Below are positions 20,716-26,366 of a DNA stretch of 36,718 nucleotides, piece by piece. Each line of letters opens with the position of its first letter. The stretch's first letter is position 1. A model generated the notes under the pieces. The model worked only from the letters and a program-made list of their open reading frames with translations. It was not told where the DNA came from and ran no database searches. Location of the stretch: the NCBI GenBank assembly GCA_022616315.1, contig JAKEEX010000562.1, positions 1-36,718 on the forward strand, given 5' to 3'. Origin of the DNA: Myxococcaceae bacterium. Lineage in GTDB: Bacteria > Myxococcota > Myxococcia > Myxococcales > Myxococcaceae. Made by a program: the position numbers and the translations under genes.

Positions 20716-20928
20716 TTACAGCTCGCGCAGCTTCAGCCGTCCCTCGGAGCTGATGCGCACCTGGAACTGGCTGCCGCAGTAGTTGCAGAGCACCTCCGCC
20801 CCCTCCGTGAGGGGGTCGTCCACGGGGTTGTGGGCGTTGCACGAGGGGCAGTCGAACTCGGTGGCGCCGCGGCCCGTCCGCCCCGGGCTGTCGCCCACGT
20901 CCTCGTCGTCGTCGTGTTCCATGGACAT
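20716..20928 (-). CDS. Small zinc-ribbon protein (70 aa)
   Basis: The product starts MSMEHDDDEDVGDSP at ATG 20926-20928. After an acidic N-terminus it has a four-cysteine ribbon: CPSC, then CNYC about 20 residues later, followed by a strand-forming C-terminus (QFQVRISSEGRLKLREL). The spacing fits a zinc ribbon of the kind found in many small accessory proteins. No partner domain is present and no function can be assigned. It converges on yggS and diverges from the exported-protein cluster that starts at 21115. The much longer open frame around it continues antisense through other genes and is not believable. Confidence 0.7.
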   Translation of the reverse strand: MSMEHDDDEDVGDSPGRTGRGATEFDCPSCNAHNPVDDPLTEGAEVLCNYCGSQFQVRISSEGRLKLREL

Positions 20929-21114
20929 GACGGGCCAGCCTACCAGCCCCCCGCCTCCCCGACAGTCCCCGGTCTGAATGTGAACGGGGTGTGCCCGTCT
21001 CGATGCGGGCCGGGCGGAAGGAATGCAATACTGCCGGCTGGCTGTTCCGACGCCTGCCGCGTCGCCTGGCCACCGTGAGGGGGCCGGCGGCGCGCTGCTC
21101 GGGGGTTCTCGTCG

Positions 21115-21918
21115 ATGCTCGGACGCAGCAGGGTCGTTCTCACCGCTCTTCTCGCTGGCTGTGTGCTCGTGGCGGCAGAGCCCGCGCGGGCCCAGGCCTC
21201 GGCCTTTGGCCCCGGGGAGCAGTCCACCTACCGGATGCACTGGCTGGGCATCACCGCCGGCACCACGCGCATCACCGTGGGCGCGCAGACCGAGCAGTGG
21301 GGCCGCCCGGTGTGGCCGCTGGTGGCCATTGGACAGACGGAGTCGTTCTTCCGCGTCTACCCCATCCGCGACCGCTTCATCTCCTACTGGGACACGCAGA
21401 CGCAGTCGTCGGTGGGCAGCGAGTTCCACCAGGACGAGAACAAGGTCCGCCGCCGGATGCGCGTCCGATTCAATGCGGCGGAAGGCAAGGCGATGGTCCT
21501 CAAGCAGAAGGAGGGCCAGCCGTCTCACGAGGCCACGGTGGACGTGCCGCCGGGCGTGACGGACGTCGCCGCCGCGACATTCGCCCTGCGCAACAAGCCG
21601 CTCGCGGTGGGCCAGCGCTACGAGATGCCCGTCTTCACGGGCACCCGCGTCATCACCATGCGTGCGGACGTGGTGGGGACGGAGACGCTGGACACCACGC
21701 TCGGTCGGCGCGAGGTCTTCAAGCTCCGGGTGCAGACGGAGTTCACCGGGAGGCTCGCGTCGCGGCGGGACATGCACGTCTATCTGACGATGGACGAGGC
21801 ACGCGTGCCCGTGCGCATCGAGGCGGACCTCGTTCTCGGCAAGGTGGTGGCCGAGCTGAGCGACTACCAGGAGGGGCGCCGCATGGCGGTGGCCCCGCCG
21901 CTCCAGAGCGACAGCTGA
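21115..21918 (+). CDS. Exported DUF3108-family protein
   Basis: The 267-aa protein starts with a signal peptide (MLGRSRVVLTALLAGCVLVA, cleavage likely near ARA-QA around residue 26). The mature part is beta-rich: GEQSTYRMHWLGITAGTTRI, VAIGQTESFFRVYPIRDRF, ALRNKPLAVGQRYEMPVF and DMHVYLTMDEARVPVRIEAD. This is the pattern of DUF3108 proteins: a start with a 'same-fold' ligand-binding-like beta sheet and an end with 'xxPxRIExxL..G'. Function of the family is not established. It is 27 bp upstream of a GH123-like gene, and a second DUF3108-like gene follows that, so the three probably act together in the periplasm or envelope. Confidence 0.75.
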   Translation: MLGRSRVVLTALLAGCVLVAAEPARAQASAFGPGEQSTYRMHWLGITAGTTRITVGAQTEQWGRPVWPLVAIGQTESFFRVYPIRDRFISYWDTQTQSSVGSEFHQDENKVRRRMRVRFNAAEGKAMVLKQKEGQPSHEATVDVPPGVTDVAAATFALRNKPLAVGQRYEMPVFTGTRVITMRADVVGTETLDTTLGRREVFKLRVQTEFTGRLASRRDMHVYLTMDEARVPVRIEADLVLGKVVAELSDYQEGRRMAVAPPLQSDS

Positions 21919-21945
21919 GGAGCGGGAGGACGTCAGGAGGTTGCC

Positions 21946-23607
21946 GTGGCGGCAGCGCTCTTTCTGGCGGCGGTGCTCGCGGCCGGCGCGCCGCACTTCG
22001 TGTCCCCGCTCGTGAAGGTGCGGCCCGGGAAGGCGCCGGCGCACGTGTCGGGGGAGCTTTCCCTGGCGCGCGGCGAGTGCGAGGGCCTGCAGCTCTACGT
22101 GCCACCACCGGCCGAGGAGGTGTGGGTGGAGGCGCAGCCGCTCCGCTCGGGACAGGACACCCTCGCCGTCACTCCGTTCCAGGTGGGCTACGTGCCCGTC
22201 ACCACGCCCTCCAACGCGATGGGTGCCACCGGCGCCTGGCCGGACCCCTTGTTGCCGTTGAGCCGTGACAGGGCCCTGCGCTCCCGGCCCGAGCGCCCTG
22301 CGGTGCTCTACCTGGAGCTGTGTGCGCCGGAGAGGCAGAAGCCAGGCAGGTACCAGGGGACGGTGCGTGTGTACCTGGGTACACGCGCGAAGGAGCTCCC
22401 GCTGCGCGCCACGGTCCACCCCTTCGCGCTTCCTGCCACCTCGTCACTTCCCAACTCGTTCGGCGTCTCGCTCCACAGCATCGCGAAGGGGCACGGCCTG
22501 GATGCGTCCACGCCGGAGGCTCGCGCGCTCCTGCACGCCTACGTCCGCGAGCTCCTCGCGCACCGGGTGACGCCGCACGGGATGAGCATGGAGGCGCCCC
22601 CGGTGCGCTTCGAGTCGGGGCGCGCACGCGTGGACTTCCGCGCCTACGACGAGGAGGTGGGTCCGTACCTGGATGGGACCGCCCTGCCCTCCGGTGCCCG
22701 CTTCACCACGCTCGACGTCCGGGACTCGAAGGAGGCGCGCACGGACGAGGAGAAGGCCGCGTACTACCGCGCCTTCCGGGAGCACGCCCTGGAGAAGGGC
22801 TGGCGTGCGCAGCTCTTCTTCTACGCGAAGGACGAGCCGCGCCCGGAGGACGTCCCGCTCGTGCTCCAGCAGGCAGCGCGGGTGCGCCGGGCGGGAGGAA
22901 TCTCCGTGCTCGTCACGTCGCCGCTCGAGGAATCATTGCGAGAGGCCGCGGACATCCTGACGCCGCCGCTCAACTGCTTCTTCCCGCGCGCGGGTCCTCC
23001 CACCTGCCGCAACCCGATGAGCACGGCCTCGCTGCGTGGCCGACTTCCGAGCGCGACGCGCGTGTTCTGGTACCAGAGCTGTCTCGCCCACGGTTGCACC
23101 GGAGGGCCTGCAGCGGACCCTGCCGTCGAGCGGGCCTTCTCGGGCTGGGCCTCGTACATGGTGGACCACCCTGCCCCGCTCAACCGCGCCATGGGACCGC
23201 TCGCCTGGCGCGCCCAGGTGGACGGAGAGCTCTACTTCGACACCGTCCACGCCTTCGGCACGCAGGACCCATGGGAGGGCGTCTTCGCGTTCGGTGGCAA
23301 CGGCGACGGGACACTCCTCTACCCCGGGACACCGGCGCGGCTGAAGGGCGCGGCGCACCAGCCCGTCGTGTCGCTCCGCCTCAAGCACCTCCGCGATGGG
23401 CTCGAGGACTACGAGTACCTGAGGCTGCTCGCGGAGCTGGGAGACCGGGCAGGGGCGGATGCGCTCGCGGCGCGCCTGGCACCGACCGGCTTCCAGGTGA
23501 GCCAGGACCCGGTGGTCTGGACCCAGGTGCGTGCCGAGGCCACGCGGCGGCTGAATGCCCGCTGGCGTGCCACTGAATCCCGCCGCGGCGCGCCCGTCCC
23601 GAAGTGA
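21946..23607 (+). CDS. Exported putative glycoside hydrolase, GH123/DUF4091-like
   Basis: GTG 21946 has AGGAGG five nucleotides upstream. The 553-aa product has a short signal peptide (MAAALFLAAVLAAGAPHF). An N-terminal beta domain (about 20-160) is followed by a barrel-like catalytic region. The acidic pair D296-E297 in FFYAKDEPRPEDVP corresponds in position and context to the Asp-Glu pair used by GH123 beta-N-acetylgalactosaminidases. The C-terminal signature GTLLYPG then SLRLKHLRDGLEDYEYLRLL is typical of DUF4091 (the GH123 catalytic region). Substrate is not predictable; an amino-sugar glycan is a family-based guess. It overlaps by 4 bp a possible GTG of the next frame. Confidence 0.8.
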   Translation: MAAALFLAAVLAAGAPHFVSPLVKVRPGKAPAHVSGELSLARGECEGLQLYVPPPAEEVWVEAQPLRSGQDTLAVTPFQVGYVPVTTPSNAMGATGAWPDPLLPLSRDRALRSRPERPAVLYLELCAPERQKPGRYQGTVRVYLGTRAKELPLRATVHPFALPATSSLPNSFGVSLHSIAKGHGLDASTPEARALLHAYVRELLAHRVTPHGMSMEAPPVRFESGRARVDFRAYDEEVGPYLDGTALPSGARFTTLDVRDSKEARTDEEKAAYYRAFREHALEKGWRAQLFFYAKDEPRPEDVPLVLQQAARVRRAGGISVLVTSPLEESLREAADILTPPLNCFFPRAGPPTCRNPMSTASLRGRLPSATRVFWYQSCLAHGCTGGPAADPAVERAFSGWASYMVDHPAPLNRAMGPLAWRAQVDGELYFDTVHAFGTQDPWEGVFAFGGNGDGTLLYPGTPARLKGAAHQPVVSLRLKHLRDGLEDYEYLRLLAELGDRAGADALAARLAPTGFQVSQDPVVWTQVRAEATRRLNARWRATESRRGAPVPK

Positions 23608-23654
23608 CGTCAAACGCGGCGACGGAACCTGCGCCGCCGCTCCACGAGGACACG

Positions 23655-24506
23655 ATGCGAACGGCCCTGGCGGCACTGCTCCTTCTGGCGGGTGGACAGG
23701 CCCACACGGCGCCGTCACCGCAGCAGCCGGAGCTTCCACCCGTCCCGTCGGACGCCGAGTGCCGCTCGCTGCCGGGCCCGCTCCTGCCTCCGGCCTTCGC
23801 TCCCGGCGAGACGCTCGAGCTCGACCTGGACGCGATGGGCGCCAACGCGGGGAGCATGACGATGCGCGTGCTGCCCGTGAAGGACGGGCTGCTCCCACTG
23901 CAGGTGGATGCGCGGACCCACACGTTCCTCTCCAAGCTCCGGCGGATTCAGGGGACGGGCACCAGCTTCGTCCACCCGCGCACGCTGCGGCCGCGGCGCT
24001 ACCTGGAGGACTCCGTGGAGAACGAGGTGGCGCGGAGGGTCGAGGTCACCTTCACGCCGAGGAGCCGCCGCGCGTCGGTGTCGTGGCGCTCGGGAGGCCG
24101 CGCCGGGAAGGTGGAGCTGACGTACGGAGGCACCGAGCCCCTGGATATCGCCGGCGCCGTCTACCTCGTGCGGCAGCTGCCGTTGAAGGAGGGCCAGCCC
24201 CTGTGCGTGGACGTCTACGGGGGGCGCCGCATGTGGCGATTGTTCGGGAAGGTGGCGAAGAAGGAGCACGTGAGCCTGCCTGTCGGGGAGTTCGAGGCGT
24301 GGCACCTGGAGGCCACCGCGGCACGACTGGACGCACCGCGGGTGCGACGTGACGTGCACGTGTGGATCTCCGCGGACGACCGCCGTCTCCCGCTGGCCGC
24401 CGTGGGAACCACCGACCTGGGCGTCATGCGCGCCACCCTCACCGCCTACTCGCGTCCCGGAGCGCCCGCCGTGCGCAGCGAGGGCGCAGGCCAGATGAAG
24501 TGGTAG
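23655..24506 (+). CDS. Exported DUF3108-like protein, second copy
   Basis: ATG 23655 with GAGGA six nucleotides upstream gives a 283-aa protein with a clear signal peptide (MRTALAALLLLAGGQAHTA). A GTG at 23604 overlapping the previous stop is in frame, but would put 17 hydrophilic residues before the signal, so the ATG is preferred. The mature protein contains GETLELDLDAMGANAGSMTM, FLSKLRRIQGTGTSFVHP, VYLVRQLPLKEGQPLCVDVY and DVHVWISADDRRLPLAAV. This follows the same order as the DUF3108 protein at 21115, but with low identity. Function unknown. Its stop is 3 bp from that of the convergent repeat-protein gene. Confidence 0.75.
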   Translation: MRTALAALLLLAGGQAHTAPSPQQPELPPVPSDAECRSLPGPLLPPAFAPGETLELDLDAMGANAGSMTMRVLPVKDGLLPLQVDARTHTFLSKLRRIQGTGTSFVHPRTLRPRRYLEDSVENEVARRVEVTFTPRSRRASVSWRSGGRAGKVELTYGGTEPLDIAGAVYLVRQLPLKEGQPLCVDVYGGRRMWRLFGKVAKKEHVSLPVGEFEAWHLEATAARLDAPRVRRDVHVWISADDRRLPLAAVGTTDLGVMRATLTAYSRPGAPAVRSEGAGQMKW

Positions 24507-24509
24507 CGC

Positions 24510-26366
24510 TCAAGGTCCAGGCGCAGGCACGGCGTTGAGAGGCACCACCGGAGGCACACGCGACACGGGCACGACCGGCCGTGCATTGAGCGGCACCACG
24601 ACCGGACTCCCGCTGCCACTGGACGCAAGGCCCATGGAGCTCGCGTGAGCAGCGCCGCTGTTCGACACGCCATCGGACTGCGCCATCTTCGGTGCCGGCA
24701 GCGCGCCAGGGCCGAAGGGCTCGGTATTCACGCCGGGGCCGAACGCAGAGGACGCGGCGACTCCCGGCCCGAATGCGGCGCCGTTCGTCCCCGGGGTCTG
24801 CACGACTCCAACCTCCGCGCGTCGAGGAGCGAGCGTGCCCGCGCCATCCGACAGCGGCCGACCGATTTCGAGCACCGGCCCCGTCTCGAGCACGAGCTTC
24901 GGTCCGAACTGACTGGCGGGCGCACCACTGGCATCGATGCGGAGCACGGGTTCAGCGGAGACCCCAATCGTCGCGCCCACAGGGATGTCGAGCACCGGCG
25001 CCGCTTCGACCGCGCGCACAGCCGTGCCGTCGATGGTGAGCGACGGCTCCGCGGACACATCCAGCAGGGGACCCGGCTCGAACCTCAGCGCCGGTCCACC
25101 GTCCAGGTCGAGCACAGGGCCCGTCTCGAAGCCGAGGTCCCCTCTTCGTAGCGGCACCGGAGGCTCGAGCGGGAGCGCATTGAGCGGCACCGGTCCCCCC
25201 TGCAGCGGCGGTGGACTGCCCTGGAGAGGCACCGGGCCGCCGATGAGCAGGCCTGGACCGTCGAGGATCAGAGCAGGACCTCCCAGGAGCATTGGAGCCC
25301 CGCCGAGGAGCAGGGGCACGCCACCGAAGAGCAGGTCCACTCCGCCGAACAGGGGAGGCACGCCGCCCGCGAGCGGAGGCGGTCCGCCAAAGAGCGGAGG
25401 CGGTCCGCCGAAGAGAGGCTCGGGGCCTCCGAAGAGCGACAGCGGTCCCCGGATGAACGCCTCGAGGCGCGAGCGGGGAGTGGCATCCACCGGCGCCTGG
25501 GGGCCCACGCCCAGGCGCAAGGCGCGCTCATCCCGCGGAAACTCCGGCGCGGGAAGCGTGGGCAGCGGGACGCCCGGGAGCACGTCGAATCTCCGTCGTC
25601 CCGGACGGACCGAGATCATCCACTCCGAGCGCCACTCCTCTCCTGCTGCGTCGTCCTCTCTCGATGCGAGCGACTCCGCATCGTCCCCGGGCGTGGTGCC
25701 CCGCTCGGTCACGAGCGCACCTTCGGGTGCGAGGACGACGCCGTCTTCGAACGTGACGATGAACCCTCTCTCGAACGTGAAGCGGAGCTGTCCCTGCGGG
25801 AACGGAGACCGCGCGAGGCCTTCCACCACCACGTGGAAGCCAGGGTCGTCCTTCATCCACTGCGGAGGGTCCTGAGCTCCGTCGCTTCCCGCCACGACTG
25901 CGACCCGGACGTGGATGACCGCGTCGTCCGTCACGAGCTGGCCGTTGCGGAGCACCCGTCCCCTCCCCGACACCGAGATGCGTGCTGCGGGCGGCGCTCG
26001 GGTGCACAACCCTCTCACCCTGTCCCTATTCCAGGGGGAGAGGGGAGATTGGAGCGGGAGGCAGCGCTCCACGATGGCGTCACCTTCCGCGCGCTGGAGC
26101 TCCACCTCGAGCTCTACTCCCTCGCCCACGAGCACCGCGCGGAACGCCACGGCGTCCCCGGACGAGGAACCCGGAGGCGTCGCGCGGCCCTCGAGCTCGA
26201 GCTGCGCGTCACCGCGCACGCGAGCGGCCTTGCGGGTGAAGCTCCCCGGTCCAACGAGCACCTGCGCAGGAGCGTCCTCCACGCGCGCCGAGACACCCGG
26301 GCCCCCCACCTCCGCGGCCCCGGTCAGCAGGCCCAGCAGCCCGACCCACACCCACCAGGCGCCCAT
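24510..26366 (-). CDS. Exported protein with tandem 7- and 8-residue repeats
   Basis: The 618-aa product begins with a signal peptide (MGAWWVWVGLLGLLTGAAEV). Residues about 25-260 form a beta-rich domain (FRAVLVGEGVELEVELQ, HVVVEGLARSPFPQGQLRF, RGFIVTFEDGVVLAPEGAL) with cysteines C102 and C121. Residues 307-397 are thirteen consecutive heptads of form G-[PVA]-x-x-L-x-G. Residues 408-503 are twelve consecutive octads of form G/E-P-x-L-x-hydrophobic-x-x. The tail has three FGPG motifs and two VVPLNA motifs. Synonymous codons vary between repeats, which argues for selection on the protein. Residues 108-119 are encoded by a dispersed palindromic element. No family is recognised. ATG 26364-26366 follows AGGAGG and GGGAGG. 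A surface or fibrous role is a guess. Confidence 0.72.
   Translation of the reverse strand: MGAWWVWVGLLGLLTGAAEVGGPGVSARVEDAPAQVLVGPGSFTRKAARVRGDAQLELEGRATPPGSSSGDAVAFRAVLVGEGVELEVELQRAEGDAIVERCLPLQSPLSPWNRDRVRGLCTRAPPAARISVSGRGRVLRNGQLVTDDAVIHVRVAVVAGSDGAQDPPQWMKDDPGFHVVVEGLARSPFPQGQLRFTFERGFIVTFEDGVVLAPEGALVTERGTTPGDDAESLASREDDAAGEEWRSEWMISVRPGRRRFDVLPGVPLPTLPAPEFPRDERALRLGVGPQAPVDATPRSRLEAFIRGPLSLFGGPEPLFGGPPPLFGGPPPLAGGVPPLFGGVDLLFGGVPLLLGGAPMLLGGPALILDGPGLLIGGPVPLQGSPPPLQGGPVPLNALPLEPPVPLRRGDLGFETGPVLDLDGGPALRFEPGPLLDVSAEPSLTIDGTAVRAVEAAPVLDIPVGATIGVSAEPVLRIDASGAPASQFGPKLVLETGPVLEIGRPLSDGAGTLAPRRAEVGVVQTPGTNGAAFGPGVAASSAFGPGVNTEPFGPGALPAPKMAQSDGVSNSGAAHASSMGLASSGSGSPVVVPLNARPVVPVSRVPPVVPLNAVPAPGP
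24858..25145 (-). repeat. Twelve tandem 8-residue (24-nt) coding repeats
   Basis: Residues 408-503 keep an 8-residue register without a gap. Clear units are GPVLDLDG, GPALRFEP, GPLLDVSA, EPSLTIDG, APVLDIPV, EPVLRIDA, GPKLVLET and GPVLEIGR. Units at 448-455, 464-471 and 480-487 are degenerate. Alternating hydrophobic residues suggest short beta strands. Confidence 0.75.
25176..25448 (-). repeat. Thirteen tandem 7-residue (21-nt) coding repeats
   Basis: Residues 307-397 read as uninterrupted heptads such as GPEPLFG, GPPPLFG, GVPPLFG, GVDLLFG, GVPLLLG, GAPMLLG, GPGLLIG and GPVPLQG. Leu at position 5 is kept in nearly all units, with Ile once. Gly is at position 1 in all units but one. Codon choices differ between units. 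Confidence 0.85.
26011..26045 (+). repeat. Dispersed 35-nt palindromic element, copy 2 (intragenic)
   Basis: Matches the minus-strand reading of 11969-12003 at 31 of 35 positions; both contain CTCACCCTG and CCAGGGGGAGAGGGG. It lies inside the repeat-protein gene, encoding residues 108-119 (PLSPWNRDRVRG) between its two cysteines, and leaves the frame open. The hairpin arm is weaker here because of substitutions at 26028 and 26030. Confidence 0.7.

Follow-up and report, generated by a model that had tools for sequence, protein, structure and literature searches.

Enzymes of glycoside hydrolase family 123 (GH123) catalyse a substrate-assisted hydrolysis of beta-linked N-acetylhexosamines (HexNAc), which depends on an adjacent Asp-Glu (DE) pair. 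Candidate groups with 12-26% identity to GH123 (Groups 1-4) share with it nine conserved residues, and alanine mutants of two of these, Y392 and W431 of NgaLy, lose much of their activity; the CAZy team treats all these groups as parts of one large GH123 family with subfamilies, and NgaCa is oligosaccharide-releasing, its cleft letting oligosaccharides through (Sumida et al. 2024, PMC11087588, in the sections drawn on here). DUF3108 proteins have already been placed in the YmcC fold (PMC4364669), and GfcB, formerly YmcC, which belongs to group 4 capsule export, is described as having a LolA-like fold and is predicted to be an outer-membrane lipoprotein (PMC8592465). EipB of Brucella is a periplasmic protein whose deletion makes the bacterium sensitive to envelope-disrupting compounds, its exact job being given as unknown (PMC10787603). 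In the literature searched, no tested function of DUF3108 was found, nor anything joining GH123 with Myxococc, nor a paper joining EipB, Brucella and a disulfide. The two protein families meet in the locus described here, a trio of consecutive genes on a 36.7-kb contig (36,718 nucleotides, JAKEEX010000562.1, in the following 'the window'; contig C18) of a Myxococcaceae bacterium, of which the assembly (GCA_022616315.1) comprises 912 contigs at a completeness of 93% and the relatives are myxobacteria. The short names A, GH and B are used for the first DUF3108 gene, the GH123-like gene and the second DUF3108 gene, respectively.

The conserved linkage of A, GH and B across much of the order suggests joint work on the sugars of the cell envelope. 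The reading that we tentatively prefer, with a probability somewhat short of an even chance, is that GH trims a HexNAc-containing envelope glycan of the cell itself, with A and B as paired EipB/LolA-like partners.

The three genes lie on the plus strand as the original prediction had placed them (table 1), with a GC distribution by codon position of the coding type (0.93, 0.89 and 0.90 at the third position for A, GH and B, respectively), and both A (150.0 bits) and B (73.7 bits, as the long open reading frame 23604-24506) exceed the Pfam cut-off of 26 for DUF3108 (PF11306). The signal peptides that had been proposed for all three are borne out in so far as the N-termini, judged by eye, are signal-peptide-like, with a basic n-region in A and B and none in GH; that of B is seen only from the ATG at 23655, inside the longest reading frame, which opens with the GTG at 23604. 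The gap of 27 bases between A and GH, with a strong AGGAGG, and that of 47 bases between GH and the likely ATG of B make a single transcript plausible, and a scan of the locus for promoters and terminators gave nothing above chance. The N-terminus of A carries a lipobox-like LAGC, which was not seen among the N-termini of the relatives' A proteins compared, so that A is at most a possible lipoprotein.

Table 1. Features of the trio and its surroundings in the window (positions are those of the whole contig).
Feature	Positions	Strand	Basis
A, exported DUF3108 protein, 267 amino acids	21115..21918	+	PF11306, 150 bits; signal-peptide-like N-terminus (by eye)
AGGAGG, ribosome-binding site of the GH gene	21935..21940	+	5 bases before the start codon, GTG 21946
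GH, exported GH123-like (DUF4091-type) glycosidase, 553 amino acids	21946..23607	+	PF13320, 24.8 bits; profile match to PDB 8k2f; model
Codons of D296-E297, predicted catalytic DE pair	22831..22836	+	Conservation; alignment to 8k2j/8k2h; model
Codons of G427-E-L-Y-F431 in GH (F431 at the place of the substrate-site Trp; E428)	23224..23238	+	Alignments
B, exported DUF3108 protein, 283 amino acids from the likely ATG 23655	23655..24506	+	PF11306 on the long reading frame; model
Small protein, two CxxC pairs; serves as a marker of synteny and is not counted in the unit	20719..20931	-	tblastn synteny

Linkage was examined in a main sample of 60 genomes, namely the window's own and 59 of the same family or order, which are related, so that the counts are not independent events. 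A GH match was found in 42 and DUF3108 in all 60. When only the best GH match of each genome is considered, a DUF3108 gene on the same strand and within 1 kb accompanies it in 34 of the 42, across eight of the nine families of the order: on both sides (A-GH-B) in 24, downstream only (GH-B) in eight and upstream only (A-GH) in two, with neither in the remaining eight. In two of the GH-B genomes (G023 and G038) GH stands at a contig end and A could not be seen, and in some of those with neither neighbour (G046, G050; 34% identity) the best match may be a paralog. The complete trio occurs in families f1, f3, f5 and f6, and GH-B in f1, f2, f3, f4, f7 and f8; in family f9 an A-like gene lies at least 1.4 kb from GH, on the other strand. 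Chance adjacency of the three genes is ruled out by these counts and by their spread over eight families, and the co-occurrence in other genomes, which had been set as a check beforehand, proved to be wide.

A scan of a named collection, from which the best 80 of 127 loci were kept (the flanks of some ending at contig ends), gave by our own profiles 34 A-GH-B, 11 GH-B and two A-GH arrangements, three with A on the opposite strand and 30 with no DUF3108; among those with the trio are Myxococcus xanthus (GH ortholog in L126), Corallococcus, Archangium, Hyalangium and two loci of Anaeromyxobacter (L189, L193). In a phylum-wide sample, 117 of 193 genomes have a GH match at 1e-10, and only nine of these are outside the order. 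The 80 loci yielded 77 GH sequences (L153, with unknown bases, and L156, L173 and L191, too short, were left out, and L192 gave two), and, once near-copies and a short fragment had been removed by hand, 63 of the 78 sequences (that of the window included) entered a quick tree without bootstrap, in which a single branch of 36 rows unites all 29 that have a B neighbour with seven rows without B. The trio may be pictured as a set of envelope genes that is old within the order Myxococcales and probably inherited at a fixed chromosomal site. One typical myxobacterial trio (L149, BNCN01000003.1) is labelled Comamonas sp. KCTC 72670, a label that is probably wrong unless the assembly is contaminated.

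GH passes the Pfam model GH123_cat (PF13320) narrowly (24.8 bits, cut-off 23.1), and profile and structure searches agree with the GH123-like identity originally proposed for it. A profile built from 27 trio-type GH sequences and searched against the sequences of the PDB at E 0.01 matched nine, all of GH123 type, with 8k2f as the best (E 1.4e-45). The AlphaFold2 model, made from an alignment of 57 rows (predicted local distance difference test, pLDDT, 93.8; predicted template modelling score 0.93), has the N-terminal beta-sandwich and the catalytic barrel expected of the family. Superposed with VIA, the model reaches Z 40.1 with NgaCa (8k2f; 2.8 A over 444 residues, 22% identity), 38.1 with both NgaDssm and NgaP2, 31.6 with NgaAt, 28.2 with BvGH123 and 27.1 with CpNga123; over 17 solved GH123-family entries Z spans 26.8-40.1, the next other fold standing at 12.4, and rows 1-22 of a Foldseek search with the model all belong to GH123. 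The D296-E297 pair, whose placement had been named as a second check, lies in the model at the C-terminal end of barrel strand 289-296; it is invariant in the 57 rows and aligned with the DE of 8k2j and 8k2h. Neither check speaks against the original prediction.

Seven of the nine residues reported as invariant are kept in GH (D100, D296, E297, Y376, G427, Y459 and R478, as placed from the printed alignments and their order), Y376 in 56 and G427 in 57 of the 57 rows. The interface Trp is replaced by Y122, in a column with W 26, Y 23, F 6 and L 2, and the substrate-site Trp by F431, in a column that holds F 33, Y 23 and H 1, and never W. E428, a position at which the printed members of Groups 1, 2, 3 and 4 have I, F, Y and F, respectively, is invariant (57/57), as are C379, G383 and C384. 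GH lacks the complete set of nine, which is an observed pattern of GH123 and Groups 1-4 and not a formal definition, and with seven of them it is left outside the five named groups; given that its 22% identity with NgaCa falls inside the reported range of 12-26%, it seems, from alignments and identity, to be one more branch close to Group 1. NgaCa, of Group 1, resembles it in the superposition of the whole protein, in the DE pair and in the seven residues, and differs by the Trp that GH replaces with Phe, Tyr or His and by the absence of the new invariant Glu. Specificity for N-acetylgalactosamine (GalNAc) is plausible, and the substrate site differs from those of the known groups. The same genome has a second GH123-like gene (C121:21793-23385; L202:7743-9437, +), 38% identical to that of the window, which was rejected as a member of the unit: it sits between molybdopterin-oxidoreductase genes and a DEAD helicase gene, with no DUF3108 in the 11 kb fetched.

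A and B share 26% identity, and no further DUF3108 copy was found in the assembly, at its completeness of 93%. In Pfam searches at E up to 0.1 only DUF3108 was listed for either, DUF1849, the family of EipB, not being among the matches; a profile of A and B together found no sequence of the PDB, and NCBIfam gave no model for A, GH or B at E 0.001. The model of B, made from 41 A-plus-B rows (pLDDT 91.8), has as its closest bacterial solved fold that of EipB (6ntr; Foldseek E 6.7e-07; VIA Z 15.7, 3.4 A over 211 residues), followed by the YmcC-like 3fzx (Z 11.1 over 171 residues) and YmcC/GfcB itself (2in5, Z 8.6), so that a YmcC-like beta-barrel is predicted for B; Z values of about 7-9 to LolA, LolB, LppX and RseB express a general resemblance of fold. 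EipB and B would have in common the spiral beta-barrel, and both genes are near conserved envelope genes, but the two proteins are only 10% identical, B matches DUF3108 and not DUF1849, and no glycosidase neighbour of EipB is mentioned in the sections of PMC10787603 drawn on here. Similarly, the fold that B appears to share with YmcC/GfcB and 3fzx comes without the genetic setting of group 4 capsule, as the window genes scanned show neither a gfcC- or gfcD-like partner nor a capsule operon, and A and B form instead a pair around an enzyme. A cysteine, C184, is present in 27 of 27 B rows and another, C36, in the first 16 B rows; 14 A rows have neither.

On the preferred reading, GH would be exported and its D296/E297 pair would carry out substrate-assisted hydrolysis of a beta-linked N-acetylhexosamine, GalNAc being the most likely. 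Its active site is probably cleft-shaped, by analogy with the nearest solved group, and because of this shape GH may cut inside a longer glycan or release oligosaccharides from one. A and B would be EipB/YmcC/LolA-like beta-barrels in the periplasm or the outer membrane, working as a pair that may bind a ligand, carry or present a lipid-linked or outer-membrane glycan or assist in its placement, and GH would trim or clear the glycan that they handle. The nearest functional analogy is the periplasmic hydrolase or lyase encoded by many exopolysaccharide systems. A role confined to the spore coat is not claimed, since the trio is present in the two Anaeromyxobacter loci and this genus is not known to form fruiting bodies. 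If GH acts on the cell's own polysaccharide, the trio bears on how myxobacteria build their matrix or spore coat, of which GalNAc is reported as the major sugar (PMC3858216). The coupling to an enzyme of predictable chemistry also provides a first testable hypothesis for DUF3108, and the GH branch, with a new invariant Glu and without the usual Trp, makes a clear target for finding out what glycan is cut.

That the glycan would be self-made is suggested by the position of the window locus, which joins rodA, PBP2 and mreC genes, and by the relatives of GH outside the phylum, which among the best 80 of 127 loci and in the quick tree are mostly acidobacterial. In five acidobacterial loci tested (L159, L162, L165, L169 and L172), GH is 34-38% identical to that of the window and in every one follows a heparinase II/III-like gene and an amidotransferase gene of the Asn-synthase family; a glycosyltransferase gene immediately precedes it in four, a PHP-domain gene taking this place in L165. 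For the four amidotransferases scanned (L159, L162, L165 and L172), the best NCBIfam model, below its cut-off, is that of the XrtA/PEP-CTERM exopolysaccharide amidotransferase. With such neighbours, the acidobacterial clusters look like exopolysaccharide biosynthesis loci. Their GH proteins, all within the 57 rows, are like that of the window in the invariant DE pair and E428 and in having no Trp at 431; unlike the trio, they have no DUF3108 in the flanks fetched.

Several observations weigh against the preferred reading. In the window, the trio is not within a polysaccharide cluster: no polymerase, glycosyltransferase or export gene adjoins it, the neighbours scanned being cell-shape, repair and housekeeping genes. 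Eight of the 42 best GH matches are without a same-strand DUF3108 within 1 kb, 58 of the 116 DUF3108 matches above the cut-off are not beside the best GH match (the other 58 are), and 18 of the 60 genomes, all with DUF3108, have no GH match, from which it follows that A and B must also act without GH. Outside the order, GH occurs without DUF3108: the genome with the best match there (G077, in another class of the phylum; 40% identity) has none, in a class where only weak DUF3108 matches were seen, in five of nine genomes, and outside the phylum none of 10 acidobacterial and none of four Nitrospirota loci has it in the flanks fetched, some of which end at contig ends. The departure from two of the nine residues means that the activity or specificity of GH may have changed. 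Finally, a match of fold between B and EipB or LolA shows no function, and a chain of the sperm axoneme (9fqr_Xh) ties with EipB in Z, with PA1994 (2h1t, Z 11.3) third.

How far the genes belong together beyond their common place on the chromosome is best seen where the arrangement varies. The mreC-ppiD-maf-yggS-trio-DUF507-uvrC block is conserved as a whole in much of the order, as would be expected if A, GH and B were functionally unrelated and had merely been kept in a stable region. Such purely inherited synteny is quite improbable, as the trio in G037 and GH-B in G036 and G042 persist in loci of 15-18 kb that showed none of the usual flanking genes; G036 also has a separate A, on another contig and about 5.4 kb past YggS and the small CxxC gene. 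Moreover, many genera have extra genes directly before A, whereas another large gene between A and B was found in G046 only, and the frames of A and B are coupled in the absence of GH. Eight genomes without a GH match have A next to B, as does a ninth, G039, with GH elsewhere, and in eight of these nine pairs NTGA joins the stop of A to a possible start of B, so that the frames overlap or abut (seven junctions were flagged by a script and that of L080, in frame, was read from its junction; at several, another ATG within a few bases leaves the exact overlap unsure). The persistence of linkage without the usual flanks and the coupling of A to B both support joint work. As the eight genomes without GH indicate, A-B is the steadier pair and GH an optional member. 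The envelope glycan-processing unit of the original prediction, argued there from position alone, has been carried beyond position by the predicted EipB/YmcC/LolA-type fold of B and the acidobacterial clusters, while the glycosidase as its constant centre had to be given up, a GH match being missing in 18 genomes, eight of which keep A and B side by side.

An optional enzyme would also suit a foraging or predatory role, in which GH breaks down prey or environmental glycans and A and B merely share its transcript. Many of the named genera with the trio, such as Myxococcus, Corallococcus and Archangium, are predators. GH is dispensable, as its absence from 18 of 60 genomes shows, and GH123 enzymes have been linked to glycan degradation and use (PMC11087588). 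Such a role is nevertheless rather unlikely in view of the steady site beside mreC, maf and uvrC, with no transporter or sugar-catabolism gene among the trio neighbours scanned, of the coupling of A and B in the absence of GH, and of the biosynthetic genes around its acidobacterial relatives. The two Anaeromyxobacter loci speak in the same sense, this genus not being known as a predator. It is distinctly unlikely that GH has lost or changed its catalysis and serves an A-B machine for assembly or export as its glycan-binding subunit: the substrate-site Trp is indeed replaced in every one of the 57 rows, and in G046 the slot holds a different exported protein, as if made for a client, but D296, E297 and G427 are kept in all 57 rows and Y376 in 56, and the replacement is Phe or Tyr in 56. 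A broader proposal, speculative and of fairly low probability, is that A and B are a dedicated EipB/LolA-like carrier pair for a lipid-linked glycan, whose gene slot takes a client acting on the carried glycan, usually a cleft-type glycosidase that has its substrate site rebuilt and represents a new branch within the GH123 superfamily, and in G046 another exported protein. The papers found describe no such A-B-client device of the envelope.

The protein in the place of GH in G046 (L110:7931-9415, -) has 495 amino acids, has no Pfam or PDB sequence match and was found, among the loci examined, only in that genome; its C-terminus, VEVDF, is by eye like the end of an outer-membrane barrel. Between the small CxxC gene and A, G010 encodes a 740-amino-acid protein (L072:11161-13383, +) that looks exported and has an esterase match (PF00756); in G040 a similar protein of 710 amino acids occupies the same place, where several other genera, and not the window, have a gap of 2.4-3 kb. 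In L112 (G048:C5), at about 3.7-10.7 kb, the A-like and the small CxxC genes are each present twice, about 3.7 kb apart and on the strand opposite to GH, the A-like copies being in broken frames, which may reflect a duplication or an assembly fault.

In the window, the trio is bordered on one side by minus-strand genes that a Pfam scan assigns to RodA, PBP2 and MreC, separated from it by those of a SurA-like isomerase, Maf, a YggS-like protein (Pfam Ala_racemase_N) and the small two-CxxC protein, which tblastn finds near the trio in many relatives; PpiD, YggS, RodA and PBP2 are the names that we take to go with the Pfam families around the trio. Beyond the trio, also on the minus strand, follow a repeat protein, DUF507, UvrC and UvrB. 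The repeat protein (24510-26366, -), of 618 amino acids with a hydrophobic N-terminus and long GGPPPLFGG-like repeat runs, has no match in Pfam at E 0.1 or in NCBIfam at E 0.001, and partial matches to it, with 26-29% identity, occur in the loci of five relatives.

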